Virus record (IMG/VR): IMGVR_UViG_3300022467_001304
Span: 1-20,950 of that record
DNA: 20,950 bases
Source: a virus
Direction: 5' to 3' (one strand)
Part shown: piece after piece, positions 845 to 17,559 of the stretch
Position numbering within the stretch: position 1 is the first letter of the stretch
Layout: each line of letters starts with the position of its first letter
Translations under genes and position numbers: made by a program
Notes under the pieces: model-generated
Seen by the model: only the letters and a program-made list of their open reading frames with translations
What the model was told of the DNA's origin: nothing
Database searches by the model: none

Positions 845-1673
845 GCGCCCCCTGATTGTCCCCAAGCCAATCTACCTCTCCGCGAAGCCGGTTCTGGTCG
901 CTGCCGTACTGGTCTTCATGGGGTTGTGGGTATACCGTGCCTTCTGGTACGATCCCTACCAGAAGCACCTCCTGCAGCTCACGACAACCAGCGGCCAGCA
1001 GAACGCAGCGAAGCTGGAGGCCAACGGACTGTCGTCGGTAGGGCCCAACCCGAGTGAGGTCGCGAAGGGGAAGGCAACACCACCTCCTGTGCGCGTATCC
1101 CCAACAACACCAGCAACGGTGTACGTCACAGGAGCACGTGGTCGACAGGGTCCAGGTCCGACGAGTGCACAGATCGGTGAAGCGGTCAGTGCGTACTTCG
1201 CTCAGCACCCTCCGCAGGCCAACGTGACGGTCTCGCAACTCACTCCGATCGTCAAGACGTATGTCACGTCGTACCTACGTGGGCATCCGATCCCAACACC
1301 ATCACCAGGCAAGGAGGGGAAGCAGGGACCTTCCGGATCACCGGGTGCACCTGGCTCACCTGGCCCTGGTCCAACGCAGGAGCAGATCAACGCAGCAGTG
1401 CAGGCGTACCTACCAGGGATCGTATCCGCGTACCTGACTGCCAACCCACCGCCGTCTGGTCCACCGGGTACGAACGGCACGAACGGAACTAACGGGACGG
1501 ACGGGACCGATGGCACGAATGGTAAGCCACCGTTCGGCTGGAGCTACACAGATCCAGGCACTGGCACCGAGATGCAGTGTCTACGTGACAACACCAACGA
1601 CAACCAGCCACACTACACATGTGCTCCAGCTTCGTCGACAACGACGATACCGCCTGGATCCGCGACGCCCTAG
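837..1673 (+). CDS. membrane-anchored collagen-like protein
   Basis: 278 residues, ATG overlapping the end of the previous gene by 8 nt. Residues 17-35 are a transmembrane anchor preceded by a basic N terminus, so the bulk should lie outside the membrane. Two Gly-X-Y collagen-like stretches occur at about 158-179 and 208-232, the second dominated by GTN and GTD triplets. Three similar predicted helices of about 20 residues alternate with them (109-126, 131-152, 180-205), each with an Ala-Val-x-Ala-Tyr or Tyr-x-x-x-Tyr core and followed by Pro. The C terminus has two cysteines and a Thr/Ser/Pro-rich tail. Collagen repeats in phages normally form trimeric stalks. Here the anchor and the place just before the endolysin suggest an envelope-spanning or lysis-associated role rather than a plain tail fibre; that is inference. 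Confidence 0.75.
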   Translation: MAKRPLIVPKPIYLSAKPVLVAAVLVFMGLWVYRAFWYDPYQKHLLQLTTTSGQQNAAKLEANGLSSVGPNPSEVAKGKATPPPVRVSPTTPATVYVTGARGRQGPGPTSAQIGEAVSAYFAQHPPQANVTVSQLTPIVKTYVTSYLRGHPIPTPSPGKEGKQGPSGSPGAPGSPGPGPTQEQINAAVQAYLPGIVSAYLTANPPPSGPPGTNGTNGTNGTDGTDGTNGKPPFGWSYTDPGTGTEMQCLRDNTNDNQPHYTCAPASSTTTIPPGSATP

Positions 1674-1681
1674 GAGGTGAG

Positions 1682-2500
1682 ATGTTCTATTTCCCCGATG
1701 TGTCGAAGTGGCAAGGGGACGGCGTCGACTGGAAGACGCTGACGAGTCAACGCGACGTAGCATGCATCCGCGCGATGTATGGCACAGGAGTGGATGTTGA
1801 CTTCGTCCGCAATCGGACAGCGGCCCACGCCAACGGAATCGGTGTGCTCGGCATGTACCACTATGTGGTCAAGGGTACGGACGTTGCCACACAGGCGCGT
1901 GCGTACCTGAACGCCATCGGTACGCTGGCACCCAACGAGTTCGACATCCTCGATCTGGAGGATGACATGGACTTGGCGAGTGCAGCTACGACGTGGTTCG
2001 GAATCGTGGAAGCTGCGCACAAACGCCAGGCCACCTGCTACAGTGGTGATCAGCACCTGCGGACCGATGTCGCTCCGTACACCACGCAGAACGCCGCTCT
2101 CGTTGCCGCAGTCGGCACTCGTCCACGCTGGGTTGCACGGTACTCGGTATCGAAGCCGTTCTCGACCTACGACGCGTGGCAGTACTCCGAGACGGACACT
2201 GGCGAGGGTATCCCTGGTCAGCACGACGACTCTCGGTACGAAGGAACCCTCGATCAGTTCAAGGCGAGGTTCCTTGGCACTACACCTGTGCAAACCGCAA
2301 CACCGGATCCTGAAGAGGAGGACCCAATGCTTTATCTGTTCATCCGTGCGTCGGCCAGCGACTTGTACCTGCTGTCCTGCCCCGGCGGACTGTTCATCGT
2401 ACGCCACTCGACGTCAGTCTCGCCGCTACTCGCTGGCGGTGCGAAGAAGATCCCGCTCGACGACGACACCTACAACGCCATGAAAGCGCAGGCGAAGTGA
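1682..2500 (+). CDS. GH25 endolysin (1,4-beta-N-acetylmuramidase)
   Basis: 272 residues. The ATG at 1682 follows TAGGAGGTGAG, and the preceding gene stops in the same place; an in-frame start at 1619 would overlap that gene and lacks a site. The N terminus (FPDVSKWQG) is the glycoside hydrolase 25 opening strand with Asp6. The catalytic D-x-E pair is at about 91-93 (ILDLEDD). The barrel ends near residue 200 (AWQYSETD, then GTLDQF). GH25 enzymes cleave the N-acetylmuramic acid to N-acetylglucosamine bond of peptidoglycan, here to release progeny. About 55 C-terminal residues after an acidic linker (DPEEEDP) are probably a wall-binding domain. No signal peptide is visible, so export probably depends on the holin encoded next. 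Confidence 0.92.
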   Translation: MFYFPDVSKWQGDGVDWKTLTSQRDVACIRAMYGTGVDVDFVRNRTAAHANGIGVLGMYHYVVKGTDVATQARAYLNAIGTLAPNEFDILDLEDDMDLASAATTWFGIVEAAHKRQATCYSGDQHLRTDVAPYTTQNAALVAAVGTRPRWVARYSVSKPFSTYDAWQYSETDTGEGIPGQHDDSRYEGTLDQFKARFLGTTPVQTATPDPEEEDPMLYLFIRASASDLYLLSCPGGLFIVRHSTSVSPLLAGGAKKIPLDDDTYNAMKAQAK

Positions 2501-5338: not shown

Positions 5339-5617
5339 TCAGTCCTTCCGCAACAGCGGAGACGGCTTCGGACCCGGCACAACTTGCATGGGCTTGGTGT
5401 CCAACTCGTACTGAGCGATCAGCACTGCCAGGATGCCCGCCTGCGCATGCGCCTGCGCAGCCAGGATGGCGTTCTGCTGCTCGATAGCGCCCTGCGGGTT
5501 GAGCTGAATCTGCTCCCGTGTGAAGCTCGCTGCGAACATGAGGTTCTGCAACGCGTCGCTCAGACGGTTGCCAGCGAGCTCCTTGACGTTCTGCTGCTTC
5601 TGCTGTGCGTTGTTCAT
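5339..5617 (-). CDS. hypothetical helical protein
   Basis: 92 residues. The ATG at 5617 overlaps the polymerase stop codon as ATGA, so it is probably translated by coupling; the nearest purine-rich stretch (GAGGAG) is rather far. The protein is Gln- and Ala-rich and almost wholly helical (AIEQQNAILAAQAHAQAG), with a Pro-rich C terminus (VVPGPKPSP). It resembles small oligomerising or accessory proteins, but no family is recognised. A partner role for the polymerase is suggested only by position. Confidence 0.65.
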   Translation of the reverse strand: MNNAQQKQQNVKELAGNRLSDALQNLMFAASFTREQIQLNPQGAIEQQNAILAAQAHAQAGILAVLIAQYELDTKPMQVVPGPKPSPLLRKD

Positions 5618-8199
5618 GCGGCTACTTTCCACTCCTCGACTTCTCCGAGAGACGGTCCGATCTCCGCCTCGACGAACAGCTTGATGTGTGTCTCGAACGG
5701 CGGTGTGGTCATCTCCCGCGTGATGACCTCGACAGCCTCCTCAATGCGGTCCTCCTTGATCTCGAAGACCAACGAGTCGTGGACGGTGAACAACACGTGA
5801 CCCAGCTCCATGGCGGGCAGGATCTTGGATAGGCGGATCAGTGCACTCAAGCACACGTCACTCGCCAAGCTCTGCATCGGGAAGTTGACGGCCTGGTTCT
5901 CGATGCGGTTACGCAACTGCGGTGTGATCAACCGCCAGCGTCGCTTGCGACCCATCGGCGTTTCGAGTACACCCTTGGTCAGTGCATCGCGCTTCCAGCC
6001 CTCGTACTGCTCGTGCCACTGTGGGTACTCACCCCACAGCTTGTCGATGTACGCTTGGGCCTTCCGCTCGTCACCGCCGGTGATCTCGTAGAGCTCCCCT
6101 TGCGACAGTGACCACGCCTGCCTGCCGTACGCGATCCCGAACGTCACGAACTTGCTGTTGAAGCGCTGTAGCCCTGTGACCTGGTCGTACGGTGTGTCGA
6201 AGATCGCTGCTGCGGTGTTGGTGTGGAAGTCCTTCTCCGTGAGCGCACGGCCTAGGTTCTCGTCACCGCTGTAGTGCCATGCGATGAACAGCTCGAGGTT
6301 CTTGTAGTCGAAGTCCGCGATCACGTGTCCTGGGCTGGCACGGAACAGCTTGCGGATCAGCTTCGCCTTAGTCGGGTCTGCAACGCCCCACTTGGGGATC
6401 GTCTGCATCGGCGGGTTGTGGATCGACAGCCGTCCTGTCACCGTCCCGAACAGCAGGAAGTCTGGGTGGATGCGTCCGTCAGACCACACGTCGTCCGCGA
6501 TGCCACGCACATAGTTGTTCATGAGGTGGTTGCGCTCGTTGTACTCCGCGAACAGCTTCGACAGCGGATGCGCACTGTGGTAGGCCCAGAAGTCCTTGTC
6601 CGTGCTGCGTCCGTTGACCTGCTTCATCTTGAGGATGTCGAGTGCCAGTGCCTGTCGCTGTGGAGCACTGTTGGGGTTGAACGTGTCGTCCTTGACCAGC
6701 ACGAATCGTCGCTTCATGCAACGGGAGCAGCTCGGATCGCCAAACTGCACCTTCGTCACCTTGTTGCGCATGTACTGCAGCCTGGCGCGCCATTCCTTGC
6801 GGTCGTACTTCTCCAGCCAGGTGTGCAACGGCTTCGGAACGCAGTCGGGGCAAGGAGCACCCTTCACCTGTGCACTCGTGTAGTCGCTGGCCTTGAACCC
6901 TTGCTCCGCTGCGTAGCTCTGCAGTTCGACCCGGGCTGCGTCGATCAGTGGTTGCCACTCCTCCTCGAGCTTCTCGACGTAGTCCATGTCGATCATCGTG
7001 CCGTGGTACTCGATCTCGGAGAACGCTAGCTGCGCTGGGGTCAGCAGGTCTTTGCACAGGGAGGTAGTGCCTTCGGCCTTCACAGCAGCCATCAACACCG
7101 GTACCAGCTCACGTGTGTAGTACGCATCCTCGCAACCGTACTCCGCAAGAGCCATCCACTGCGCTTCGCTCATGGGTCCCAGCTTGTAGCTGTACCCACT
7201 TCTGGTGAGCTTGTCCTTGTACAGCGGCGCGTTCAGGTAGCGACGTGACAGTGGTTCCAGACCAACCTGTTCACCACGCTCCGTGAGCCCAAGCCCCAGC
7301 ACCATGGTGTCGATGACCTCGAACTGGTAGTGGAACCCGTTGGCACGCAACACCTGGATGTCGTAGCTGCTGTTGTGCATGATGACGACCCGCTTGGGCC
7401 TGCTCAGCAGCTTGTCCAGCGCTCTGTGGAACCACTCCGACTTCCCGAGCACGCGCATGTCGAACGCGACAGCCTTGATGCCGTCGTACATCTGGATCAT
7501 GACCAGCTCGTCCATCTTCGGACGTGGCTGTGCCCATGGTGCCTTCGACTCCGTGTCGAGCGACAGGTACTGCACCGGATCCATGGCTGCGAGCAACTCG
7601 CATGCCCTAGCCACATCTCGTGTGAACTCCCAGTCCACTTCGATGCGCTTCTTCGGCATCGGGATGTCGCCCTTGACGAGCTGGATCGCACGCTGCAGGG
7701 TGTCGTAGATGTTGTCGAAGAAGCCCGTTCCGCCATGCAACACGGCTGCTGGGTGATACGTCGGGATGACGAAGGCACCCAGCTCCTCACGCCAGTTGGT
7801 GCTGCCTTCGATGTCGCTGAGCTTCTCGCGAGCGCCAGTCAAGGCTGCTGCAGCGGTAGCTCCAAGCGCCACTACGATCTTCGGGTTGCGGGATCGGATC
7901 TCGTCGATCAACCGAGGCCGGCATGCAGCGATGGCTGCAGCGCTTGGTGGTGTGTCCTTCCCGTCACCACCTACGGGTGGTCGGCACTGTGTGACGTTGG
8001 TGACGTACACCTCATGACGCATGACACCGAACTCGGCAAGGGTGGCGTTCAGCAGCCGGCCACTTGCACCGACGAACGGAACGCCATCCCTTGCCTCCTG
8101 CCAACCTGGAGCTTCGCCTACGAGTACGAGGTCGGCCTTTTCCGGCCCATCGCCAGCACAGCCTTCACTGCCCTGGAGAGGGCAACCCGCACAACGCAA
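5614..8199 (-). CDS. uracil-DNA glycosylase domain fused to family A DNA polymerase
   Basis: 861 residues starting with TTG, 6-7 nt after AGGAG; no ATG fits. Residues 1-175 match family 4 uracil-DNA glycosylases: GEAPG at 28-32, PFVGASG at 41-47, PTYHP at 146-150, and Cys3, Cys6, Cys72 and Cys93 in the pattern of the 4Fe-4S cluster. Residues about 205-370 are a 3'-5' exonuclease (DTE at 215-217, HNSSYD at 275-280, YGCED at 354-358). Residues about 580-861 are the polymerase: TGRLS at 588-592, motif A DFDYKNLE at 629-636, motif B with Lys683 and GIAYG, motif C VHDS at 806-809 (Ser where Pol I has Glu). An insertion at about 448-500 holds two CxxC pairs. It is the replicative polymerase of the phage; both catalytic modules look intact. 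Confidence 0.93.
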   Translation of the reverse strand: MRCAGCPLQGSEGCAGDGPEKADLVLVGEAPGWQEARDGVPFVGASGRLLNATLAEFGVMRHEVYVTNVTQCRPPVGGDGKDTPPSAAAIAACRPRLIDEIRSRNPKIVVALGATAAAALTGAREKLSDIEGSTNWREELGAFVIPTYHPAAVLHGGTGFFDNIYDTLQRAIQLVKGDIPMPKKRIEVDWEFTRDVARACELLAAMDPVQYLSLDTESKAPWAQPRPKMDELVMIQMYDGIKAVAFDMRVLGKSEWFHRALDKLLSRPKRVVIMHNSSYDIQVLRANGFHYQFEVIDTMVLGLGLTERGEQVGLEPLSRRYLNAPLYKDKLTRSGYSYKLGPMSEAQWMALAEYGCEDAYYTRELVPVLMAAVKAEGTTSLCKDLLTPAQLAFSEIEYHGTMIDMDYVEKLEEEWQPLIDAARVELQSYAAEQGFKASDYTSAQVKGAPCPDCVPKPLHTWLEKYDRKEWRARLQYMRNKVTKVQFGDPSCSRCMKRRFVLVKDDTFNPNSAPQRQALALDILKMKQVNGRSTDKDFWAYHSAHPLSKLFAEYNERNHLMNNYVRGIADDVWSDGRIHPDFLLFGTVTGRLSIHNPPMQTIPKWGVADPTKAKLIRKLFRASPGHVIADFDYKNLELFIAWHYSGDENLGRALTEKDFHTNTAAAIFDTPYDQVTGLQRFNSKFVTFGIAYGRQAWSLSQGELYEITGGDERKAQAYIDKLWGEYPQWHEQYEGWKRDALTKGVLETPMGRKRRWRLITPQLRNRIENQAVNFPMQSLASDVCLSALIRLSKILPAMELGHVLFTVHDSLVFEIKEDRIEEAVEVITREMTTPPFETHIKLFVEAEIGPSLGEVEEWKVAA

Positions 8200-8319: not shown

Positions 8320-8348
8320 ATTATAGGTGACTCACCCGAGGTTTTCAA
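8320..8348 (-). promoter_or_regulatory. class I promoter driving the polymerase unit
   Basis: On the minus strand TTGAAA (8348-8343), a 17-bp spacer and TATAAT (8325-8320), followed by the shared leader CAATACATAGGGCAC. The spacer contains GGTGAGTCACC, an inverted repeat with 5-bp arms. The TGA inside the -35 hexamer is the stop codon of the gene ending at 8345. The first start codon is 31 nt downstream. Four more copies occur in the window. Confidence 0.85.
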
Positions 8349-8740
8349 GCAGAGACTCCTGGAGTCGCCCAATGGGCTTGTGGTTGCGCAACAGAAATAT
8401 GTTGCCCGGTTCCCGAACGACCCGTATTTTCCGTTTTAGCGTTGGACTGTTGCTGCAGATACATCGCGAGCGCCATAACCGCGAACACAGCCTTGTCCTT
8501 GTAGGAGTCTGCTACCGATTCGTACGAGGGTTCCCTGCCATTCTCCCGTAGAGAGCGCAGACGCACGAGCTTGTTCGCCTCGAAAATGTCTGCGACGATC
8601 TCCTCTGGGATGCCGAACAGGTCCCCTACCTGTGCAAACGACGCAAATGGGGCTGCGTCATCGGACTCGTAGTCCTTGCCCTTCGCGTAGTACGTATCGC
8701 CGATGATACGCAACGCCTCTGCGAACCAGTCCTGCGCCAT
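8345..8740 (-). CDS. DUF1599-like (nucleotide modification associated domain 1-like) protein
   Basis: 131 residues from the ATG at 8740, 7 nt after GGAGGT. An in-frame ATG at 8845 overlaps the upstream stop (ATGA) but has only a distant site, so a 166-residue form is less likely. The core (YYAKGKDYESDD, then DIFEANKLVRLRSL, then SYESVADSYKDKAVFAVMALAMYL) has the K-G-x-D-Y, hydrophobic-x-K-x-x-R-L and E-S-x-x-D-x-x-x-D layout of DUF1599, an all-alpha family found in phages with nucleotide-metabolism or modification genes. The last 30 residues are low complexity and span a promoter-like repeat, so they are probably not part of the fold. A role in nucleotide handling is inferred. Confidence 0.65.
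   Translation of the reverse strand: MAQDWFAEALRIIGDTYYAKGKDYESDDAAPFASFAQVGDLFGIPEEIVADIFEANKLVRLRSLRENGREPSYESVADSYKDKAVFAVMALAMYLQQQSNAKTENTGRSGTGQHISVAQPQAHWATPGVSA
8395..8430 (+). promoter_or_regulatory. class II promoter-like repeat, copy B
   Basis: AAATATG, TTGCCC (8402-8407), 17-bp spacer, TATTTT (8425-8430). It lies inside the 3' end of the DUF1599-like gene and points right, antisense to it, 54 bp back-to-back with the leftward promoter at 8320-8348. The sequence GCAAC before AAATATGTTGC could also form a 5-bp hairpin. The function is undetermined. Confidence 0.5.
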
Positions 8741-8841
8741 GTTCCCTACCTCCAGGGGGCGTCGATCTAGGTGGGAACGTTGACTCAGGTCTGCACGGTC
8801 GGTACCGTCACTGGCCCTCCTCTCAGCCGAGTTGTTGGTGG

Positions 8842-9399
8842 TCATGCGTACAACGGGTTCCTTCCCGCGATACGCACCTCGGTGACAGTGTCCCGACGAA
8901 CCCATGTGGCGCCCCGATCATTCGTCGCGAACTGCTTGCACACCAAGCACAAGAACCAGCCCTTGCCGAAGTCCTCACTTCGGGTCATGGAATGCTGGCA
9001 ACCGTCTTGCCTCCACTTCTCGAGCATCAGACGGTATTCCGGAGGCATAGGAATCCGTCCCTTGTAGACACCCTCCCAGCGACAGACGAGATCCCAGCGA
9101 TCCTTTCGCTGCAAGAACAGCATCTCGTCGTGGTCACAGTACTCCGCGAGCTGGTGTACGCCAAGCGGTGATTTCGCGTTCAGTGGCGTCTGATGACCCG
9201 TCCAGCCACGTCGACGCATCTCGAGCACCGACCTGCGATGCACGTCCCACAGCAGGTAGCGTCGTGCGGGATCCGACCAGCGTGCATCCCACTTGCGACC
9301 GTCGCGGACGATGAGGTTCCACAGTGCGTGGATCTCGTTGTGCTGCGCGAGCACACGCTGGTCGTCCAGCTCACCAAACGGTACGTGCCAGATCCTCAC
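8842..9399 (-). CDS. pyrimidine dimer DNA glycosylase-like protein (DenV/Pyr_excise type) with C-terminal Cys motif
   Basis: 185 residues from the GTG at 9399, which overlaps the upstream stop (GTGA); longer starts up to 9456 lie wholly inside the upstream gene. The N terminus RIWHVPFGELDDQRVLAQHNEIHALWN matches in layout the glycosylase/AP-lyase family of T4 endonuclease V, with Glu22 in the place of the catalytic glutamate. RRRGWTGHQTPLN follows as in bacterial members, and RWEGVYKGRIPMPPEY forms a second conserved block. The enzyme would cut the glycosidic bond at cyclobutane pyrimidine dimers. The last 50 residues hold CQH and CLVC, a possible zinc site. In T4 the nucleophile is the Thr2 amine; here residue 2 is Arg, so the chemistry is uncertain. 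Confidence 0.75.
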   Translation of the reverse strand: MRIWHVPFGELDDQRVLAQHNEIHALWNLIVRDGRKWDARWSDPARRYLLWDVHRRSVLEMRRRGWTGHQTPLNAKSPLGVHQLAEYCDHDEMLFLQRKDRWDLVCRWEGVYKGRIPMPPEYRLMLEKWRQDGCQHSMTRSEDFGKGWFLCLVCKQFATNDRGATWVRRDTVTEVRIAGRNPLYA

Positions 9400-9560
9400 T
9401 TCGATGCCTGCTTCCGTTCTCGCTGCTGACGGTACTTCGCATCCACTCGATGGCACCCGTACATGATGTCCGTCGCACTGTAGTGGATTGGCGAATCCTG
9501 CGGGAAGGGACAGTGCCGACAGCCGTTACCGTTGTAGTCGTAGACGTGTTGGTCGATCAC
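9396..9560 (-). CDS. small Cys/His protein, putative zinc-binding
   Basis: 54 residues, GTG start 8 nt after GGAGGT, overlapping the upstream stop (GTGA) and the downstream start (GTGA). The product contains NGCRHCPFPQDSPIHY, giving C14-x2-C17, and C36-H37, followed by a basic Arg/Lys/Gln-rich C terminus (KYRQQRERKQ). This arrangement suggests a small zinc-binding, possibly nucleic acid-binding protein. It has good start signals but is below usual size cut-offs. Function unknown. Confidence 0.65.
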   Translation of the reverse strand: MIDQHVYDYNGNGCRHCPFPQDSPIHYSATDIMYGCHRVDAKYRQQRERKQASK

Positions 9561-10004: not shown

Positions 10005-10033
10005 ATTATAGGTGACTCACTCCGGAAAATCAA
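10005..10033 (-). promoter_or_regulatory. class I promoter of the repair/small-gene unit
   Basis: TTGATT (10033-10028), 17-bp spacer, TATAAT (10010-10005) on the minus strand, then TAACTAGTAGGCACTC. The spacer contains GTGAGTCAC. The TGA of the MazG-like gene's stop codon lies within the -35 hexamer. First start codon 33 nt downstream. Confidence 0.85.
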
Positions 10034-10311
10034 GTGGTGCCTACGATCTCCTTACGAACTTTTGCAGCGAACGTCGTCGCTACGGACCCGACTTGGATCA
10101 GCTCTTCGTACAGGTGCGCGGCAGGGTCTCCGTCGAGAAGCGCTTGGGCAACCTCGCCCACTTCGGCAACCAGGATCGCAAGTCGCTGCCAGTCGCTCAT
10201 CGCGCGGGGATCGTCGATGGATGCTGCTGCGTGGATCACTCTTGCACGTGCCCGCTCACGGATCAGGTCGTCGATGACCCTAGCGTCGATTTCGGGCGAG
10301 GTTTCCGCCAT
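10030..10311 (-). CDS. MazG-like nucleotide pyrophosphohydrolase family protein
   Basis: 93 residues, ATG directly after AGGAGCAA, 6 nt after the Gat-QueC stop. Residues about 44-85 read ILVAEVGEVAQALLDG and then LYEELIQVGSVA, the E-x-x-E, E-E-L-x-x-V layout of MazG-like all-alpha NTP pyrophosphatases, which hydrolyse nucleoside triphosphates to monophosphates and pyrophosphate. The usual Asp of the E-x-x-D motif is Gly here (EELIQVG), so metal binding or activity may be altered. It is the last gene of the modification unit. A part in clearing or balancing nucleotides for DNA modification is inferred from position only. Confidence 0.65.
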   Translation of the reverse strand: MAETSPEIDARVIDDLIRERARARVIHAAASIDDPRAMSDWQRLAILVAEVGEVAQALLDGDPAAHLYEELIQVGSVATTFAAKVRKEIVGTT

Positions 10312-10317
10312 TTGCTC

Positions 10318-11673
10318 CTACTTCGCGTACTCGGTTGGGTCTGTCACTCCTGCCATCTCGAACGCCTTACGCCGCATGCTGCACGGCCCACAGTCACCGC
10401 AGTGGATCTCTTCGCCGTGGTAGCACGACCACGTCAGCTCGAACGGCATGTTCAGCTTGTGCCCGAACTCGACGATGTCGTGCTTCATCAGGCCTGCCAG
10501 CGGATCGCTGAACGTCACGTGCTTGTACGCCTTAAGTGCGTAGGGAGCCAGCTCCCGCCACTTATTGACGAACTCCTGCTCGTTGTCCGGGAATGCGCCA
10601 GACTCCTCCTGGTTGCTCCCCAACGCGATGCAGTCGTAGTCGTTGGCTTCCGCATACGCCAGCGCCAGGGCAAGCATCACCGTGTTGCGTGCGGGAACCC
10701 ACTCGTTGGCGAACTCTGCACCTGCTTCTCCGCCAGAGATCACACCCTGTGCATCCGTCAACACACTCTGTGCGTGCTGCTCGAAGAAGTTCGTCGGCAA
10801 CTCGATGACCCGTCCACCGACAGCGGAGGCCATGTTGTAGACCGCTTCGACCTCTTTCGTCTCTGCCCTGCACCCGTAGCGGAAGTGTAGCAGGTTAACC
10901 TGGTGACCCACTTGGTGGTGCTGCCACGCAACTACCGACGAGTCCAACCCTCCACTGCAGACGACCAACGTCCGGAAGTACTCCCGCTTTCGCACAGGGT
11001 AGAGGGAGTGACTCCGTAACACACCGATGTCCGAAAGGGATCCGTACTGGTAGGGACCCAGCTCGATTGGTCCTGGGTCCTTCATCGGGTTGTACGTGTT
11101 GTCGAAGTACGACCGCTGAGACGCGAACGTGTACGCACCTTTGCCGTTGGACAGCATCCACAGCGGCTTGTAGTTCGACGCCCAGTAGATCATCCGCGGC
11201 TGGCGTGCACTGTACGCGAGGATGGCGAAGCTACCCTTGAGCTTCCGGATCGTGGTCTCCCAGCCCCACTCAACCAGACACGCAGCGATGATCCAGCTGT
11301 CGACCTCCGTCGGACGACCAGCGGGATGACTCCACTCCGCGGAGCCGGTGAACTTCAGCTCCTCCCACAGCTCCTTGTCGTTGGCGATGGTCCCGTTGTG
11401 GACGACCGTCCACTCGTCGAGATCGGCACCAGCTCGGAACGGTTGCACGTCATCGAGCGTGCGGGAGTCCTCCCAGACCGGTGTACCGCGGTAGTACCCC
11501 AGGAACGGTCCACGGGCAGGAATCGGAGGATACCCAACTCCCTTGACGCTCTTGGTCATCTCGTTGAGGTTGACGATCCCCCAGCTGTCTCGTCCACGTT
11601 CGCGTGACCGTCGAGCGACTGCGTCGATCTGCGCGACGTTGTCCATGGCGAAGCCACCAAAGATGCCGCACAT
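10318..11673 (-). CDS. queC: glutamine amidotransferase-QueC fusion (Gat-QueC)
   Basis: 451 residues; the ATG shares its A with the DpdA stop (TGATG). Residues 1-220 are a class II glutaminase: the catalytic Cys2 in MCGIFGG, HNG at 92-94 and EVDSW at 123-127. Residues 233-451 are QueC: the PP-loop SGGLDSS at 240-246, ARNTVML in the middle and a zinc site Cys417-x7-Cys425-x2-Cys428-x2-Cys431. QueC turns 7-carboxy-7-deazaguanine into preQ0 with ATP and ammonia. In archaea and in coliphage 9g the Gat-QueC form is tied to archaeosine (G+) formation, so the product in DNA may be dG+ instead of, or besides, dPreQ0. Both domains look intact. The cluster context makes the function secure; the final base is inference. 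Confidence 0.93.
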   Translation of the reverse strand: MCGIFGGFAMDNVAQIDAVARRSRERGRDSWGIVNLNEMTKSVKGVGYPPIPARGPFLGYYRGTPVWEDSRTLDDVQPFRAGADLDEWTVVHNGTIANDKELWEELKFTGSAEWSHPAGRPTEVDSWIIAACLVEWGWETTIRKLKGSFAILAYSARQPRMIYWASNYKPLWMLSNGKGAYTFASQRSYFDNTYNPMKDPGPIELGPYQYGSLSDIGVLRSHSLYPVRKREYFRTLVVCSGGLDSSVVAWQHHQVGHQVNLLHFRYGCRAETKEVEAVYNMASAVGGRVIELPTNFFEQHAQSVLTDAQGVISGGEAGAEFANEWVPARNTVMLALALAYAEANDYDCIALGSNQEESGAFPDNEQEFVNKWRELAPYALKAYKHVTFSDPLAGLMKHDIVEFGHKLNMPFELTWSCYHGEEIHCGDCGPCSMRRKAFEMAGVTDPTEYAK

Positions 11674-12461
11674 CAGAAGCGGTCCTCTCGCAGCCAGTTG
11701 TCCATGGCCGAGATGCCGTTGCGGACGAGGTCACGGCTGGTTGGCGTCAGCTCGTCCCACTCGAAGTACCCCATCCGACCACCGAGCTTCTCACGTCCTG
11801 GGTAGTCCGGCACACCGTACCGGAACCACGACTCTGACACCATCGTACCGGTGAGACCCCAGACCACGAACTTGCTGGTGTCCATCGTACGCACGTTCTG
11901 CCGGATCCACGGATCGAGCATCTCCGTGAGGGTCGAACTCACACCCAGCAGGTGGATCTGCTTGTCCGGGAACATCAGCTTCAGCGCACTGACGATCGAG
12001 CCACGGGGCTGACCGAACAGCTCCTGGACTTCCTCGATGACACCGAAGGTCTTGACGCCACGGATACGCGCGAGGGTCCTAGCGCACTCGAAGTACTCCT
12101 CACCTGTGCGACCCTGCGGTACCGCCATGAACGAGTCGTAGCCGACGTCCCAGAGGTGTGACGCTGCCGCGTAGCTCTTGCGGACGGTCTGTACCGGGTC
12201 CTGGAAGACGTCGCTGAGGACGATCTCGTCTGGCTGGACGATCCGCGCTGCCTTGGTCAGCAGTGACAGCGGTGTGTCGTGGCCTTCGAACGCAGCGGTG
12301 TCCATGATCACGAAGTGCCCGCGATGCTTGCGCTCCTGGTAGAACGACGCATAGTCACTGCTATCCGCAACGACGTTCGCAACGCACAGGTGTGTGGTAC
12401 TGGTGTTCGGGATGACCTCCCACGCAGCTTTCGCTGGGGGAATGTGGCACAGCTTCATCAT
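11673..12461 (-). CDS. dpdA: DNA-guanine transglycosylase DpdA, phage type
   Basis: 262 residues. Two adjacent ATGs (12461 and 12458) follow AAGGAG and overlap the FolE stop codon. The layout follows the TGT superfamily: VIMDTAAFE at 52-59 (Asp54), VLSDVFQD at 81-88 (Asp84), VPQG at 114-117, IHLLG at 169-173 and RTMDTS at 191-196 with Asp194 as the candidate nucleophile. It is much shorter than bacterial TGT (about 370) and lacks its CxCxxC zinc motif, as expected of small phage DpdA forms. It would replace guanine in DNA by preQ0 or a derivative. The position between FolE and Gat-QueC strongly supports this. The recognised DNA sequence cannot be read from the gene. Confidence 0.9.
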   Translation of the reverse strand: MMKLCHIPPAKAAWEVIPNTSTTHLCVANVVADSSDYASFYQERKHRGHFVIMDTAAFEGHDTPLSLLTKAARIVQPDEIVLSDVFQDPVQTVRKSYAAASHLWDVGYDSFMAVPQGRTGEEYFECARTLARIRGVKTFGVIEEVQELFGQPRGSIVSALKLMFPDKQIHLLGVSSTLTEMLDPWIRQNVRTMDTSKFVVWGLTGTMVSESWFRYGVPDYPGREKLGGRMGYFEWDELTPTSRDLVRNGISAMDNWLREDRF

Positions 12462-13096
12462 GCTCCTTCTCGCATGAGTGACAGGAACTCCGCACGAGCG
12501 TCTGGCTCGTCACGGAACACGCCGCGTACAGCGCTGGTGGCGGTGAGAGCGTTGGGCTCTTCGACACCACGTAGTGACATGCAGCCGTGCGCTGCACGGA
12601 TGACGACCATCGCTCCCTTCGGATCGAGGTACTTGACGAGCGCGTCAGCGACCTGGTCGGTGACACGCTCCTGAACGGTCAACTGCTTAGCGAAGTGATG
12701 CACCACCCTCGCAAGCTTGCTGAGGCCGCACACCTTCCCCTTCGGCAGGTAGCCAACCCACGCTTTGCCGGTCACCGGCAACAGATGGTGAGCGCACATG
12801 CTCACGACCTTGATCGGTCCGACCTGCACTAGGCTGTCGTGCTCGTCACTGAAGCTGACGTCGAGGATCGCCTTCAACTCTGCCTCGTTGCCGTTGGCAT
12901 GGAACGCCTGCAACACCTTGGCAGCGCGTGCGGGCGTGCGATCGAAGTGCTGGTTCTCGGTGTCGTACCCCAGGCAGCGAAGGATCCCTGAGATGTGTGC
13001 TTCGATCTCTGCTTGAGTATCCGTCGCCAGTGGAAACGGTTCCGAACTCTCGAATGTGGTGACGAGCTCACCGAGACCGTTACGCACCTCTTCCAT
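12458..13096 (-). CDS. folE: GTP cyclohydrolase I
   Basis: 212 residues from the ATG at 13096, which shares its A with the QueE stop (TGATG), 6 nt after AAAGGGG. Longer starts to 13429 lie inside queE. The zinc ligands are Cys101, His104 (SMCAHHLLP) and Cys172 (AHGCMSLRG), and TATSAVRG near 186-192 closes the active site. The enzyme makes 7,8-dihydroneopterin triphosphate from GTP, the first step towards 7-deazaguanines and folate. A phage copy beside queD, queE and dpdA points to supply of the modification pathway. Length and motifs fit the type IA family. Confidence 0.95.
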   Translation of the reverse strand: MEEVRNGLGELVTTFESSEPFPLATDTQAEIEAHISGILRCLGYDTENQHFDRTPARAAKVLQAFHANGNEAELKAILDVSFSDEHDSLVQVGPIKVVSMCAHHLLPVTGKAWVGYLPKGKVCGLSKLARVVHHFAKQLTVQERVTDQVADALVKYLDPKGAMVVIRAAHGCMSLRGVEEPNALTATSAVRGVFRDEPDARAEFLSLMREGA

Positions 13097-13854
13097 CAGC
13101 GTCCCCTTTCCTGTCCGTATAGCAGCACGTGCTGCCTGAGTGAGAGGTTCCATCCGTACTTGTGGATACCGTCGGCAAGGTACCGTGCAGTTGCCAACTG
13201 CCCTTGCGGTGTGGTACCCTCCGGCATGATCCACACCTGATCCGGCAGGATGTTGATGTCCGCGACGATGTTGCTGACCTCGACCAGGTCGTCGACGTCC
13301 TTGACGACGAACTTGAAGTCTGCACCCAACTGCTGGAACTGCCGTAGCACATTCGGCTTGTACCGCAGCTTGGCTTCGTTGCCACTGTTCGCCAGCTTCG
13401 GGCTCACGGTCCACTGCACGAACGGCCATCGCACAGGGAGGATGGTCCCTGCCGTCTCGAACGCGATCCGGTACCGGTGGTGAAGCGCAGTCACCAGCGG
13501 GATGAGACCTTCCTGCTGCAGCAGCGGTTCGCCACCGCTGAAGATGAGCAGCGTGTTGAGTCCCAGTCCGAGCTCGTCAACTGCGTCGTAGACTTCGTCC
13601 CAACGCATGCGTCGGAGTTCCTGCCGCGGATCGTACTGCACACCATCCCTGTGCATAGCGGCGTGCCGCTCGTCGAAGGCCCACGTGTACGGCGTGTCGC
13701 AGAAGTTGCAGTGCAGGTTGCATGTGCCCAACCGAATGAATGCAGCCCTCTGCCCGGTCTGGCGACCTTCGCCTTGCCAGATGGGACCGTAGATCTCGTT
13801 GACGATGAGGCTACGGCTAGTTGACGTAGTGGGAGACGTCTCCGTCGATGACAT
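13096..13854 (-). CDS. queE: 7-carboxy-7-deazaguanine synthase (radical SAM)
   Basis: 252 residues from the ATG at 13854, 6 nt after GGGGAG; the start lies 38 nt inside queD. A TTG two codons earlier is possible. Residues 18-30 read VNEIYGPIWQGEG, the QueE opening. The radical SAM cluster is Cys45-x3-Cys49-x2-Cys52 (TCNLHCNFCDT). FSGGEPLLQ near residue 107-115 is the SAM-binding GGEP motif. TVSPK near 150 and WIMPEGTT near 210 are family features. It converts 6-carboxytetrahydropterin to 7-carboxy-7-deazaguanine. All key residues are present. Confidence 0.95.
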   Translation of the reverse strand: MSSTETSPTTSTSRSLIVNEIYGPIWQGEGRQTGQRAAFIRLGTCNLHCNFCDTPYTWAFDERHAAMHRDGVQYDPRQELRRMRWDEVYDAVDELGLGLNTLLIFSGGEPLLQQEGLIPLVTALHHRYRIAFETAGTILPVRWPFVQWTVSPKLANSGNEAKLRYKPNVLRQFQQLGADFKFVVKDVDDLVEVSNIVADINILPDQVWIMPEGTTPQGQLATARYLADGIHKYGWNLSLRQHVLLYGQERGR

Positions 13855-14272
13855 CGTCAACTCCCCTCAGCCACTCAGCGATGCATGTGTTGGTGCCGGT
13901 CTCGTGTACGAGGATCCGACCTTGCTTGGCTGCCGGGAAGTTCCGCATCGACCATCTCGCGATGATTTCGCTGAGGTTCTCGACGGTCGGGTCCCCTTCA
14001 TCGAGGATGACCGCCCCTGGCAGGTTTGCATCGCACAACGGGTCACTGCCATTGAGCAGCAATGAGTGGTCGTACGTCGAGTCCAGGTACGTGCGGAACA
14101 GCGACTTGATGTGTGCGAGGTCATCGATGAGGATGCCGCGCAGGTCGATCTCGCCGTACAGCTCCATGGTCACCTTCATCGAGTGTCCGTGGATCCGTCG
14201 GCACTTGCCTTCCAGGCTCATGAGTCTGTGAGCGACCTGGATTTCGTGATGCACCTGCAAAGAGCGCAGCAC
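13817..14272 (-). CDS. queD: 6-carboxy-5,6,7,8-tetrahydropterin synthase
   Basis: 151 residues, GTG start 8 nt after GAGAGGA. Zinc ligands His15 (VAHRL), His28 and His30 (CRRIHGHS) are present with the catalytic Cys24; Asp68-His69 (YDHS) and Glu124 (HETGTNT) complete the site. It turns dihydroneopterin triphosphate into 6-carboxytetrahydropterin, the substrate of QueE. The gene overlaps queE by 38 nt. The FolE-QueD-QueE-QueC set is thereby complete. Confidence 0.95.
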   Translation of the reverse strand: MLRSLQVHHEIQVAHRLMSLEGKCRRIHGHSMKVTMELYGEIDLRGILIDDLAHIKSLFRTYLDSTYDHSLLLNGSDPLCDANLPGAVILDEGDPTVENLSEIIARWSMRNFPAAKQGRILVHETGTNTCIAEWLRGVDDVIDGDVSHYVN

Positions 14273-14300: not shown

Positions 14301-14522
14301 TTAGCTGGCGGCTTCTGTGTCTTCGGTCACCGGCTCGAGATCCTCGTTGAGCAGACCCTTTGCCTTCAGGTCCTCGAGGATCAACCACCGGATGTAGCCG
14401 CTGACGGAGCGAGCTTCCTGCCGAGCGCGCGTCTTGATGACACCGTCGTACGACGGCTCAAGCGGCACGGACAGCATGAGCTCCTTGGTCTCCTTCCGCG
14501 GCTGCGGAACGGGCTGGCTCAC
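14301..14522 (-). CDS. ribbon-helix-helix (CopG-like) protein
   Basis: 73 residues, GTG start 6 nt after AAGGAG, overlapping the RuvC-like stop (GTGA). A strand with alternating hydrophobic residues (KELMLSVPLEP) is followed by two helices (YDGVIKTRARQEARSV, then SGYIRWLILEDLKAKG), the ribbon-helix-helix order. The C terminus is acidic. Such proteins bind DNA as dimers and often act as repressors. Here it sits just before the 7-deazaguanine genes and after the recombination genes in the same unit, so it could regulate the phage promoters. The target is unknown. Confidence 0.65.
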   Translation of the reverse strand: MSQPVPQPRKETKELMLSVPLEPSYDGVIKTRARQEARSVSGYIRWLILEDLKAKGLLNEDLEPVTEDTEAAS

Positions 14523-14935
14523 AGTTCACTCCTTCGGAGGTAGGAGATGACGTGCGCAAGCGCACTCACCTCGTCGCGTTGTCCTGTAAAGCGGCTTGCA
14601 AAGCTCACCGCGTTAAGTCTGGCTGATGGCTGCGCTACGACGACCTTGATGCACGCTTCCTCGCAACGGTACAGGAAGAACCCCAACACCTTCATGGTGT
14701 GGATCGCGTCCTTGGTCCGCGGCCCACTGCCGACGAAGTCCTCCACTACCGCCTGGTCGACGTTCATCCGTTGGATGACCCGCCAAAGCGCCAAGACGTC
14801 CTTTCCGCAGGTCGTCTTGACGCTTTCGACGAGAGGACCCCGGTGGCCCACAAACGCTAGGCCTGTGTTGCCACCGGGATCGATTCCGACCGTCGTAGTC
14901 AGCCTACCAGCCGAATCCGCCGTTGCCACTGCCAC
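14519..14935 (-). CDS. RuvC-like Holliday junction resolvase
   Basis: About 138 residues; the start is unsure. VGIDPGGNTGLAFV gives the first catalytic Asp, VVEDFVG the Glu, and DEVSALAHVISYL the C-terminal acidic residues of the RNase H-like RuvC family. In-frame GTGs at 14935 and 14929 lie inside the upstream gene and have weak sites; a CTG at 14902 would start just after its stop. RuvC-type enzymes cut four-way junctions; in phages they resolve branched replication products before packaging. The gene stands next to an SSB-like and a Sak4-like gene, which fits a recombination module. Confidence 0.82.
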   Translation of the reverse strand: MAVATADSAGRLTTTVGIDPGGNTGLAFVGHRGPLVESVKTTCGKDVLALWRVIQRMNVDQAVVEDFVGSGPRTKDAIHTMKVLGFFLYRCEEACIKVVVAQPSARLNAVSFASRFTGQRDEVSALAHVISYLRRSEL

Positions 14936-15419
14936 TGTTCTGAACACCCTGCGGCAGTTCAGCAGCCGGCTGCGAAGCACGAGCAGCGAACTTCGCCTTC
15001 TCGGCTTCGACCTCATCCGCGGGGATGATCCGGTCGACCTCGTTCTCCTGGTAGACGTTGCCCTGCGCGTCCCGACGACCCTTGTAGTCGTCCTTGACGG
15101 ACACGACGCACCACGCGTGAAGACCGATCAGCTCCGCTTCGTCCAGCGGGTTCATCTTGTCCTCGGGGAAACCCATGTCGACCAAGTCGGCCTTCAGGTA
15201 CTTGAGGTTCTCCGGGGTGAGAGAGTAGCTCCGGAACAGCCAGTTGTCCGTTCCGACAGCGACCAGACGAAGGTCGATCTTCGGCTTGCCCTGGTTCTTG
15301 CCGGACGCGGTCGTACCCAGGTTGGCCTGGTCGATGACGGCCTCGTAGACACCCGGGACGAGCGGCCGGAAGCCAGTGTTTCCCTTTTCGGCGGTGATGC
15401 CGGTCATGTCGATTGGCAT
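14904..15419 (-). CDS. DUF669/SSB-like putative single-stranded DNA-binding protein
   Basis: 171 residues, ATG 8 nt after AAGGGA. Residues 18-130 look like a beta barrel: FRPLVPGVYEAVIDQA, then KIDLRLVAVGT, NWLFRSYSLTPENLKYLKADL and LHAWCVVSVKDDYKGR, with an aromatic-rich surface. The C-terminal 40 residues are disordered, Ala/Gln then Ser/Gly/Asn-rich, ending in GFGW. This is the layout of phage DUF669-type proteins found next to Sak4 or RecA-like genes. The C-terminal tip is aromatic but not acidic, unlike bacterial SSB. ssDNA binding is inferred from layout and neighbours. Confidence 0.6.
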   Translation of the reverse strand: MPIDMTGITAEKGNTGFRPLVPGVYEAVIDQANLGTTASGKNQGKPKIDLRLVAVGTDNWLFRSYSLTPENLKYLKADLVDMGFPEDKMNPLDEAELIGLHAWCVVSVKDDYKGRRDAQGNVYQENEVDRIIPADEVEAEKAKFAARASQPAAELPQGVQNSGSGNGGFGW

Positions 15420-15443: not shown

Positions 15444-16223
15444 TCAGTTTGTCGATGCTGCAGCTGCAACCTCTTTGGCAGCAGCCGTGTGCCCCCGGGA
15501 GATGTCGATCATCTCCTGGATGTCGGGGTTCTTGATCTCCAGCGGGAGCTGAGGACCGGTCATCGGTTGGTGGTGCTTCGCGATCACTCGAGCGGTCGGC
15601 TTGAGCAACAGCTTCCGAGCTGAACTCTGCCGATCGGCCTCGAGGTAACCGACTGTATCAACTGCAGCGAGCATGTCCTTCACCACGCCCGGTGTTGCGG
15701 ACATCCGGATGAACACAAACCCCGATGAGTCATCCTTCAGTTCCTCGGCCTGCAGCACGAAGATGACGTTCGTGCCTGTTTCCCGCGCGACGGCGCACCA
15801 GTCGTAGGCGATCTTCATCACCATCGCGTTGGCTTGTCCCCAGTCGTTCTGTGACACGTTGGCGAGTGCCAAGTTCTGATTGCCACGGATCTTCTGGACG
15901 GCCAGCTTCGACAACTTCGTCATCGTGTCGAAGATGATCGTGTCGAACGGATGGGAGCGCTGGCGCAGCTGGTCGGATAGCGTCTCGACCCGATCGAAGC
16001 TGTCGTTGACGGGGAACAGATCGATGTCGTCCCGATCCGCGAGTGACCTCGCAGCCGTACCATCAATGTCGAACAGCAACGCTCGTTTCGCGGTTGACGC
16101 GAGCGTGGTCTTGCCAGCGCCCGGGAAACCGAACAACGCGATGTTCATCCCGTTGCTCTGCACGAGCTCCTTGGCCTTACGCCAAGGTGGCGTCGGACCT
16201 CCGCTTCCGGTTGCTACGACCAT
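15444..16223 (-). CDS. Sak4-like RecA-family ATPase (single-strand annealing)
   Basis: 259 residues from the ATG at 16223, 7 nt after TGGAGGT; an upstream in-frame TTG at 16238 overlaps that site and is rejected. Walker A is GFPGAGKTT at 32-40, followed by LLFDIDG near 49-55. Walker B is TIIFDT near 95-100. FVLQAEE and the C-terminal Ala-rich tail follow. These are the features of phage AAA_24/Sak4 proteins, which bind single-stranded DNA and assist annealing with a cognate SSB. The SSB-like and RuvC-like genes directly follow. It is the first gene of the unit that also carries the base-modification genes. Confidence 0.85.
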   Translation of the reverse strand: MVVATGSGGPTPPWRKAKELVQSNGMNIALFGFPGAGKTTLASTAKRALLFDIDGTAARSLADRDDIDLFPVNDSFDRVETLSDQLRQRSHPFDTIIFDTMTKLSKLAVQKIRGNQNLALANVSQNDWGQANAMVMKIAYDWCAVARETGTNVIFVLQAEELKDDSSGFVFIRMSATPGVVKDMLAAVDTVGYLEADRQSSARKLLLKPTARVIAKHHQPMTGPQLPLEIKNPDIQEMIDISRGHTAAAKEVAAAASTN

Positions 16224-16262
16224 CCTGTGCACCTCCAATCGGTTCTTGTTGGCTACTAGTTA

Positions 16263-16291
16263 ATTATACGTGACCTTCTACGAGAAATCAA
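16263..16291 (-). promoter_or_regulatory. class I promoter of the recombination/7-deazaguanine unit
   Basis: TTGATT (16291-16286), 17-bp spacer, TATAAT (16268-16263) on the minus strand, then TAACTAGTAGCC. The spacer lacks the GGTGA half of the inverted repeat seen in the 8320, 10005 and 19583 copies. First start codon 40 nt downstream. No other class I promoter is seen before 10005, so ten genes seem to share this one. An inverted repeat, AAACCG-7 nt-CGGTTT (16303-16321), lies just upstream. Confidence 0.85.
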
Positions 16292-16337
16292 GTGGTTTCC
16301 ACAAACCGTTTATTTCGGTTTTACGTCCGGGGTCACA

Positions 16338-16383
16338 CGGGCAACCTAAATCTGTTGCCCGCGATCCCCTCATTGCGTATACG
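16338..16383 (+). promoter_or_regulatory. class II promoter-like repeat, copy C, with perfect 8-bp hairpin
   Basis: AAATCTG, TTGCCC (16355-16360), 17-bp spacer, TATACG (16378-16383). CGGGCAAC (16338-16345) and GTTGCCCG (16354-16361) form a perfect inverted repeat around an 8-nt A/T-rich loop, overlapping the -35-like box. It lies between the stop of the leftward nuclease gene and the leftward promoter 16263-16291 and points right. It may be a promoter for antisense RNA, an operator, or a hairpin at the 3' end of the nuclease transcript; there is no T-run. Confidence 0.5.
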
Positions 16384-16398
16384 TCGAATGTCGCTCGA

Positions 16399-17559
16399 TT
16401 ACCGCGAGATTTCAACGGCCTTCAGTAGGTCAGCTAACGAACCAACCTGCGTTTCACCGTGGTCCTCTGCTAGGGCTTTCTGCGTGCCGTACGTGCCTCG
16501 CTTGTAGTTGGCCTGCGTGATCCACTGCACGTCCTCCCCGCGGAGCTGACCGTCGCACAGATCGCGGAAGTCGCAATCCCAGCACCCGGTCCACGGCTTG
16601 TTGAACGTGATGAGAGGGTCGTTGGCGATCTCCCAGAGGATCTTCTCGACGTTCTCGACCCACTCGACAACTGCGGACTGCGGGATCGTGATGCGGTGTC
16701 GCACGTAGAACGGGTTCTCGGTCGACTGGTCCCGCTGCCGGAGCCGGTTGAGGATGTCGCGGTAGTACTCGTCGCCAGGGTTGTCGCCGTTGGCCTTGAT
16801 CGCCTTGATGTACGCACTCTCCGTGGTATCGATCCACTCGCGGGACAACAGTCCGCTCTGCAGCTTCTTGGGTTGCACAGGGAGCTTCTTGTTGATCCCG
16901 TTGTACAGAACCCCTTCGACCTTGTGCCCGGTCAGCATCTGGATCATCGCTGGGTAGCCGATGATCTGGTGGTCCAGCAGCAGGTCGCGTAGCTGCGGTC
17001 GCTGGGAGAACGTCTTCGTCTCGCCAACCCACAGATTGCGCGTGCTCGGGTTCTGCAGCAAACCGTCGCACGTTCCGACGAGCCATGCGTACAAGTCACC
17101 CTGTGCGGTGTAGAACGGGATCCGCATCGTGACCTCGGGGTGGAGCAGCTTGAACGGTGCCCACGTGTCCTGCCCGTAGTGCTCCAGGTAGTTGCGCAGG
17201 TACGTCTTCGCGAGCTCCATGCTGGTGGTGAACGGCTCGTACTCGACCGGAGACATCGTCGTGCCAACCCGCTCCAGGTAGGCCTGCTCCATCTCAGCCT
17301 TCTGCTGTGCGATGTACTCGTCAGCAACGGCGAACGGATCCTTGCCCATGGCCTGCGCTTCGATGCCCTTGTGGACGATCGTACCGGTGGACAACGCACC
17401 GTACGCAGCACCCTTGCGAACCAGCGACTGCCGGTTGGCGGAACCGTAGTCCCACTGCCGCTTGCAGCGCATGTACTCCTGGATCTCCGTCACAGAGACC
17501 TGGACGATCGGCTTCCCGTTGAACGTACTCGGGAATGCGCTTTGCCCTTCTGGGATCAT
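16399..17559 (-). CDS. Cas4/RecB-like PD-(D/E)XK exonuclease with iron-sulfur cluster
   Basis: 386 residues; ATG overlaps the upstream stop (ATGA). Nuclease residues are His62 (TGTIVHKG), Asp164 (GTCDGLL), Glu179 and Lys181 (VGETKTF), and Gln197 to Tyr201 (DHQIIGYPAM). Four cysteines fit the Cas4/AddB 4Fe-4S pattern: Cys32 near the N terminus and Cys325-x2-Cys328-x5-Cys334 near the C terminus. Such nucleases resect DNA ends and in phages often accompany single-strand annealing proteins. It is the last gene of its unit and lies next to, but in a separate unit from, the Sak4-like gene. All expected residues are present. Confidence 0.87.
   Translation of the reverse strand: MIPEGQSAFPSTFNGKPIVQVSVTEIQEYMRCKRQWDYGSANRQSLVRKGAAYGALSTGTIVHKGIEAQAMGKDPFAVADEYIAQQKAEMEQAYLERVGTTMSPVEYEPFTTSMELAKTYLRNYLEHYGQDTWAPFKLLHPEVTMRIPFYTAQGDLYAWLVGTCDGLLQNPSTRNLWVGETKTFSQRPQLRDLLLDHQIIGYPAMIQMLTGHKVEGVLYNGINKKLPVQPKKLQSGLLSREWIDTTESAYIKAIKANGDNPGDEYYRDILNRLRQRDQSTENPFYVRHRITIPQSAVVEWVENVEKILWEIANDPLITFNKPWTGCWDCDFRDLCDGQLRGEDVQWITQANYKRGTYGTQKALAEDHGETQVGSLADLLKAVEISR

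Follow-up and report, generated by a model that had tools for sequence, protein, structure and literature searches.

Analysis of a 20,950-base fragment of an uncultivated IMG/VR virus (60% G+C; hereafter the window, known here from sequence alone) revealed a gene cassette that very probably directs 7-deazaguanine modification of phage DNA. The initial annotation had proposed such a modification, and it is supported by the presence of a complete preQ0 pathway together with a DNA transglycosylase. Phage DNA that contains 7-deazaguanine is known to be protected from bacterial restriction enzymes, and the genes are likely to form a phage DNA-hypermodification operon comprising preQ0 synthesis, base exchange, and G+ formation. 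The kind of system is known; the combination of enzymes is found in no isolate phage examined. Gat-QueC, a marker of dG+, is not restricted to genomes with the transglycosylase of phage 9g, but is combined, in a distinct lineage, with a second, short transglycosylase family. This separates the identity of the base (amidotransferase) from the degree of G replacement (transglycosylase), two properties that have so far been conflated.

Gene Content of the Cassette

Five minus-strand genes, all of them open frames, follow one another head to tail in the order QueD, QueE, FolE, DpdA-type transglycosylase, and Gat-QueC (10318-14272; Table 1). Stop and start codons overlap at the junctions (TGATG, ATGATG), a pattern as in a translationally coupled operon. 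The initial description of a complete, coupled, one-strand cassette is thus confirmed by family matches, motifs, and overlapping junctions. The clustered FolE, QueD, QueE, and QueC all carry catalytic motifs: the QueD translation contains CxxxHGH (further matches being TIGR03367, E 3.5e-17, and phrog_2389), QueE contains CNLHCNFC (Cx3Cx2C), and FolE has the zinc/active-site motif CAHH...HGC; QueC is described below. The listed open frame of FolE extends over 12458-13429, but its start is most likely the ATG at 13096, which overlaps the QueE stop and, by this reading of the junction, gives a protein of 212 aa. When the cassette region was compared at the DNA level with isolate phages, short matches only were found, the best of them in the QueC part.

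The span first assigned to the cassette, 10030-14272, does contain it, but its start at 10030 adds a 93-aa ORF that encodes none of the named enzymes. This ORF has no Pfam match, similarity to the MazG-like protein of phage phiST was tested and not found, and the ORF possibly belongs to the same operon.

Table 1. Features of the cassette and of its surroundings in the window
Feature	Position	Strand	Remarks
Glycosyl hydrolase family 25 endolysin	1619-2500	+	strand opposite to cassette
Family A DNA polymerase with fused N-terminal uracil-DNA glycosylase (UDG)	5614-8199	-	UDG E 1.2e-30; exonuclease and polymerase domains
ORF with weak match to DUF1599, "nucleotide modification associated domain 1"	8345-8905	-	E 0.023, below cut-off
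ORF with pyrimidine-dimer DNA glycosylase domain	8842-9456	-	Pyr_excise E 1e-6, above cut-off
93-aa ORF after Gat-QueC	10030-10311	-	phrog_2831 (unknown function) E 1.8e-7
Gat-QueC	10318-11673	-	451 aa; class II glutaminase fused to QueC
DpdA-type DNA guanine transglycosylase (putative)	11673-12461	-	262 aa; short CP220/phiST-like family
FolE (GTP cyclohydrolase I)	12458-13096	-	PF01227 E 8.9e-58; TIGR00063 above cut-off
QueE (7-carboxy-7-deazaguanine synthase, radical SAM)	13096-13860	-	phrog_2076 QueE-like E 6e-46; Radical_SAM
QueD (6-carboxytetrahydropterin synthase)	13817-14272	-	151 aa, GTG start; PTPS Pfam E 1.9e-21
Two small genes just upstream of QueD	14301-15016	-	73 aa; 165 aa with TVGIDPGGNTG
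Sak4-like annealing protein and PD-(D/E)XK exonuclease	15444-17559	-	upstream of cassette, syntenic in lineage

The Putative DNA Guanine Transglycosylase

The 262-aa DpdA candidate has no Pfam or NCBIfam match, its PHROGs entry is "unknown", and searches of PDB sequences with the single protein or with a profile gave no real match; it was the fold search that linked it to tRNA-guanine transglycosylase (TGT). The AlphaFold2 model (pLDDT 94.6, pTM 0.92) was compared with PDB structures, and all of the matches listed were TGTs; a preQ1-bound TGT scored Z 17.9 across 232 residues. Used as a single query sequence against viral contigs, the window protein returned zero matches; an alignment of four phage DpdAs used as the query yielded 42 viral loci. 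Six residues (G48, D54, T92, H170, G173, and D194) are invariant in an alignment of 34 DpdA proteins. D54 and D194 are located at strand ends and are ordered like the acid/base and nucleophile aspartates of TGT (D102 and D280), the pairing resting on the order of the motifs rather than on superposed coordinates. H170, in the motif IHLLG, matches, also by motif order, the position of the VHGFG histidine of 9g DpdA. At least one of FolE, QueD, QueE, and QueC is encoded near DpdA in 36 of the 42 loci, and all four in 18, as counted within the locus stretches; the homolog in Flavobacterium phage immuto, located in such an operon, is annotated as DpdA. Given the TGT fold of the predicted model, the catalytic aspartates and other conserved residues of the alignment, and the preQ0 genes nearby, the assignment of this protein as a putative DNA guanine transglycosylase is well supported. 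A tRNA-Ile reported by ARAGORN inside dpdA was rejected as spurious, since Rfam detects no tRNA and the prediction falls inside a coding frame that is conserved.

By sequence homology, the enzyme belongs to the short family of CP220, phiST, Youna2, and BSP7, and not to the 9g kind. It was matched by the short-family profile at E 6e-73, and the window-family profile in turn matched the proteins of CP220 (E 1.4e-38), phiST (1.4e-55), and immuto (1.8e-48), with at least positions 1-248 of the 252 in the profile covered, indicating full-length homology. A 9g-type profile (built from 9g, PaMx25, and Megan gp2 and gp3) missed the window protein, and the window-family profile missed the 9g-type DpdAs (E 1e-3), placing the enzyme outside DpdA1. 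DpdA2 of Vibrio nt-1, a type lacking the DpdA1 histidine, gave a weak, partial match to the window-family profile (E 2e-4); the window protein keeps H170 and falls outside this type too. Thus, the initial call of a DpdA stood, but the enzyme is not of the 9g type, and 9g, CAjan, and Rosebush were the wrong comparison set. A 2023 study by Cui et al. is said to name a DpdA3 subfamily and to tie it to complete G replacement; we take the short family to be this DpdA3, with CPT_0056 of CP220 presumably a member. Likely names follow for many phage "hypothetical proteins", including phrog_20335 and genes of CP220, Youna2, phiST, and BSTP8.

Phages of the short family differ from the window in their QueC. 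Campylobacter phage CP220, whose CPT_0056 (258 aa) is of the same family, has a plain QueC without Gat, which does not adjoin the transglycosylase gene. Cellulophaga phage phiST, Weizmannia phage Youna2, and Bacillus phages BSP7/BSTP encode homologous short DpdAs (25-30% identity to that of the window) in an operon with FolE, QueD, and QueE, but have no Gat domain: in Youna2 and BSTP8 QueC stands alone, and phiST has no QueC match. The published systems without an amidotransferase also share FolE, QueD, QueE, QueC, and a transglycosylase with the window, their DpdA being one of two types, 9g or nt-1 (PMC6884629).

Adjoining DpdA genes were observed at other loci. In L029 (7908-9403), the profile of short DpdAs recognizes two adjacent ORFs (E 8e-69 and 3e-41), a possible tandem duplication; in Microbacterium phage Megan (L006:670-2543), two tandem 9g-type DpdA genes directly precede Gat-QueC.

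Gat-QueC and Its Glutaminase Loop

The last gene encodes a full-length Gat-QueC, in which an N-terminal Met-Cys class II glutaminase (aa 2 to about 225) is fused to QueC (aa about 232-445). Its matches include QueC (E 1.9e-55), GATase (E 4e-11, GATase_6/7), and phrog_10428 (E 7e-108); the tblastn alignment with the 9g protein is full-length, at 38% identity. In structure comparisons, the first half of the model matched GlmS glutaminase (Z 23.6) and the second half QueC (Z 20.8). The QueC half keeps SGGLDS (SGGxDS) and the Cys4 site. The glutaminase had been called intact, which holds for C2, R62, HNGTIAN, and D125, but not for the loop R-x-E-P-T-T-E (aa 62-68), which in the window reads R-G-T-P-V-(2-residue gap)-W-E.

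This departure occurs in none of the 27 compared relatives: E64T sets the window apart from all 27 and T66V from 26 of them, and the two-residue gap comes in addition. The model has pLDDT below 50 only at aa 65-67 of this loop. Four related loci (L067, L068, L071, and L073) keep RGEPTTEW, L069 has RGEPAHEW, and among neighboring lineages the loop differs in part, as in RATPTTE, RGEPAHEW, and RAEPTHEF, some lineages departing at single positions. GlmS has an R-W-A-T-H loop, and by analogy R-x-E-P-T-T-E may help to bind glutamine. A frameshift behind the odd loop was rejected, as the other two frames restore no motif; the Gat-QueC frame contains neither a frameshift nor a stop.

Pairing of Short DpdA with Gat-QueC

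In total, 80 viral Gat-QueC loci were returned; the DpdA was 9g-like in 61 and short in 9, and none was present in the available stretch of the remaining 10. In a tree built from 48 short DpdAs, those paired with Gat-QueC, nine in all (the window and eight distinct loci), fall in a clade of uncultivated phages that is almost exclusive to them. The pairing requires 2 label changes on this tree, versus 8.4 with shuffled labels. Strict monophyly of the Gat-paired DpdAs was rejected (p-AU 0.001) because the DpdA of L007, a locus with plain QueC only, falls among them as the sole exception; one gain and one loss of the pairing suffice.

The window shares with the uncultivated IMG/VR relatives L067, L068, L069, L071, and L073 the gene order exonuclease, Sak4, QueD, QueE, FolE, DpdA, Gat-QueC, UDG-polymerase, with 44-50% identity in Gat-QueC and 51-56% in the polymerase. 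This recurrence indicates that the operon is a conserved unit and not a chance assembly. The isolate phages with a short DpdA that were examined (immuto in its operon region) have QueC alone or no QueC, and none has Gat-QueC. To our knowledge, no short-family DpdA paired with Gat-QueC has been studied; the product and the extent of modification in the window are therefore extrapolated.

Predicted Pathway and Product

Judging by family membership and intact motifs, GTP would be converted to preQ0 by FolE, QueD, QueE, and the QueC half of Gat-QueC. DpdA, a predicted single-domain TGT-fold enzyme that keeps both conserved aspartates as well as the DpdA histidine, would act on phage DNA after replication and replace guanine with the 7-deazaguanine base, as its fold and motifs suggest. 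By comparison with 9g, the glutaminase half would feed ammonia from glutamine to preQ0, free or already in DNA, yielding the formamidine of dG+. The modified DNA would be expected to resist restriction enzymes.

Enterobacteria phage 9g (DpdA1 and Gat-QueC) shares FolE, QueD, QueE, a full-length Gat-QueC, and the predicted chemistry with the window, and its gat-queC and dpdA put dG+ into E. coli plasmid DNA, dpdA alone giving dPreQ0 (PMC6884629). It differs in a 317-aa DpdA of the other family, in a gene order unlike that of the window, and in keeping the glutaminase loop (RAEPTTEW). By this analogy, dG+ is the likeliest main product, its chance being even or marginally better, with dPreQ0 or dADG as live alternatives. 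The initial step from Gat-QueC to dG+ thus draws support from 9g, but is weakened by the altered loop, which makes the conversion of preQ0 to G+ the least secure step and dG+ less certain than the fusion itself implies. The lineage may plausibly produce dG+; for the window phage itself, this is uncertain.

The same operon could work with an impaired glutaminase half, Gat-QueC then serving as QueC only and the DNA carrying dPreQ0 or dADG. The loss of the loop consensus in the window alone among the relatives, with low model confidence exactly there, is consistent with this possibility, as is CP220, which is reported to carry dADG (PMC8306585) and combines a DpdA of the same family with a QueC lacking Gat. 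We nevertheless consider it doubtful, as Cys2, R62, the HNGTIAN oxyanion motif, D125, and the whole domain are kept in an uninterrupted frame, and as neighboring lineages vary the loop as well.

Two other explanations dispense with DpdA as the enzyme acting on phage DNA. In the first, the phage polymerase would incorporate a nucleotide that already carries the modified base, and the TGT-fold protein would have another role; this route is mentioned as proposed for Campylobacter phages (PMC6884629), and a family A polymerase is encoded downstream of the cassette. It is highly improbable, given a TGT-fold protein with both aspartates inside the operon and preQ0 genes near most of its relatives. 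Cui et al. in 2023 reportedly assign post-replicative insertion to such transglycosylases, which also counts against a nucleotide route. Least probable of all is a role of the pathway in host tRNA or folate metabolism rather than in phage DNA: FolE, QueD, QueE, and QueC do make the precursors of queuosine and archaeosine in cells (PMC6884629), but the sequence of the transglycosylase is not that of a tRNA TGT, as the protein has 262 aa, a histidine of the DpdA type, and no match to the TGT family in Pfam; related proteins are encoded next to DNA polymerase in phage operons.

G replacement in 9g or Rosebush amounts to about 25-30%. Partial replacement as in these phages, proposed initially, is not supported as stated: the window DpdA is in the family of CP220, so the 9g/Rosebush model need not apply. 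For CP220, 100% of dG is reported to be replaced by dADG (PMC8306585, citing Crippen 2019). Replacement clearly above the 9g and Rosebush range is a tentative proposal for the window, rather less than evenly probable. It is unlikely that the lineage, by pairing Gat-QueC with a transglycosylase linked to complete replacement, carries most or all of its genomic G as deoxyarchaeosine; we know of no genome fully substituted with dG+.

Neighboring Genes

The UDG-polymerase fusion was also found in L009, and long polymerase matches in Brevundimonas phage StAshley extend into the UDG part. Of the ORFs between Gat-QueC and the polymerase, the one with the Pyr_excise domain has a homolog in L071, and the one with the weak DUF1599 match is conserved at this location in L067, L068, L069, and L071. 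The 73-aa and 165-aa genes upstream of QueD are kept beside the cassette in L067-L073; the TVGIDPGGNTG stretch of the latter looks RuvC-like by eye.
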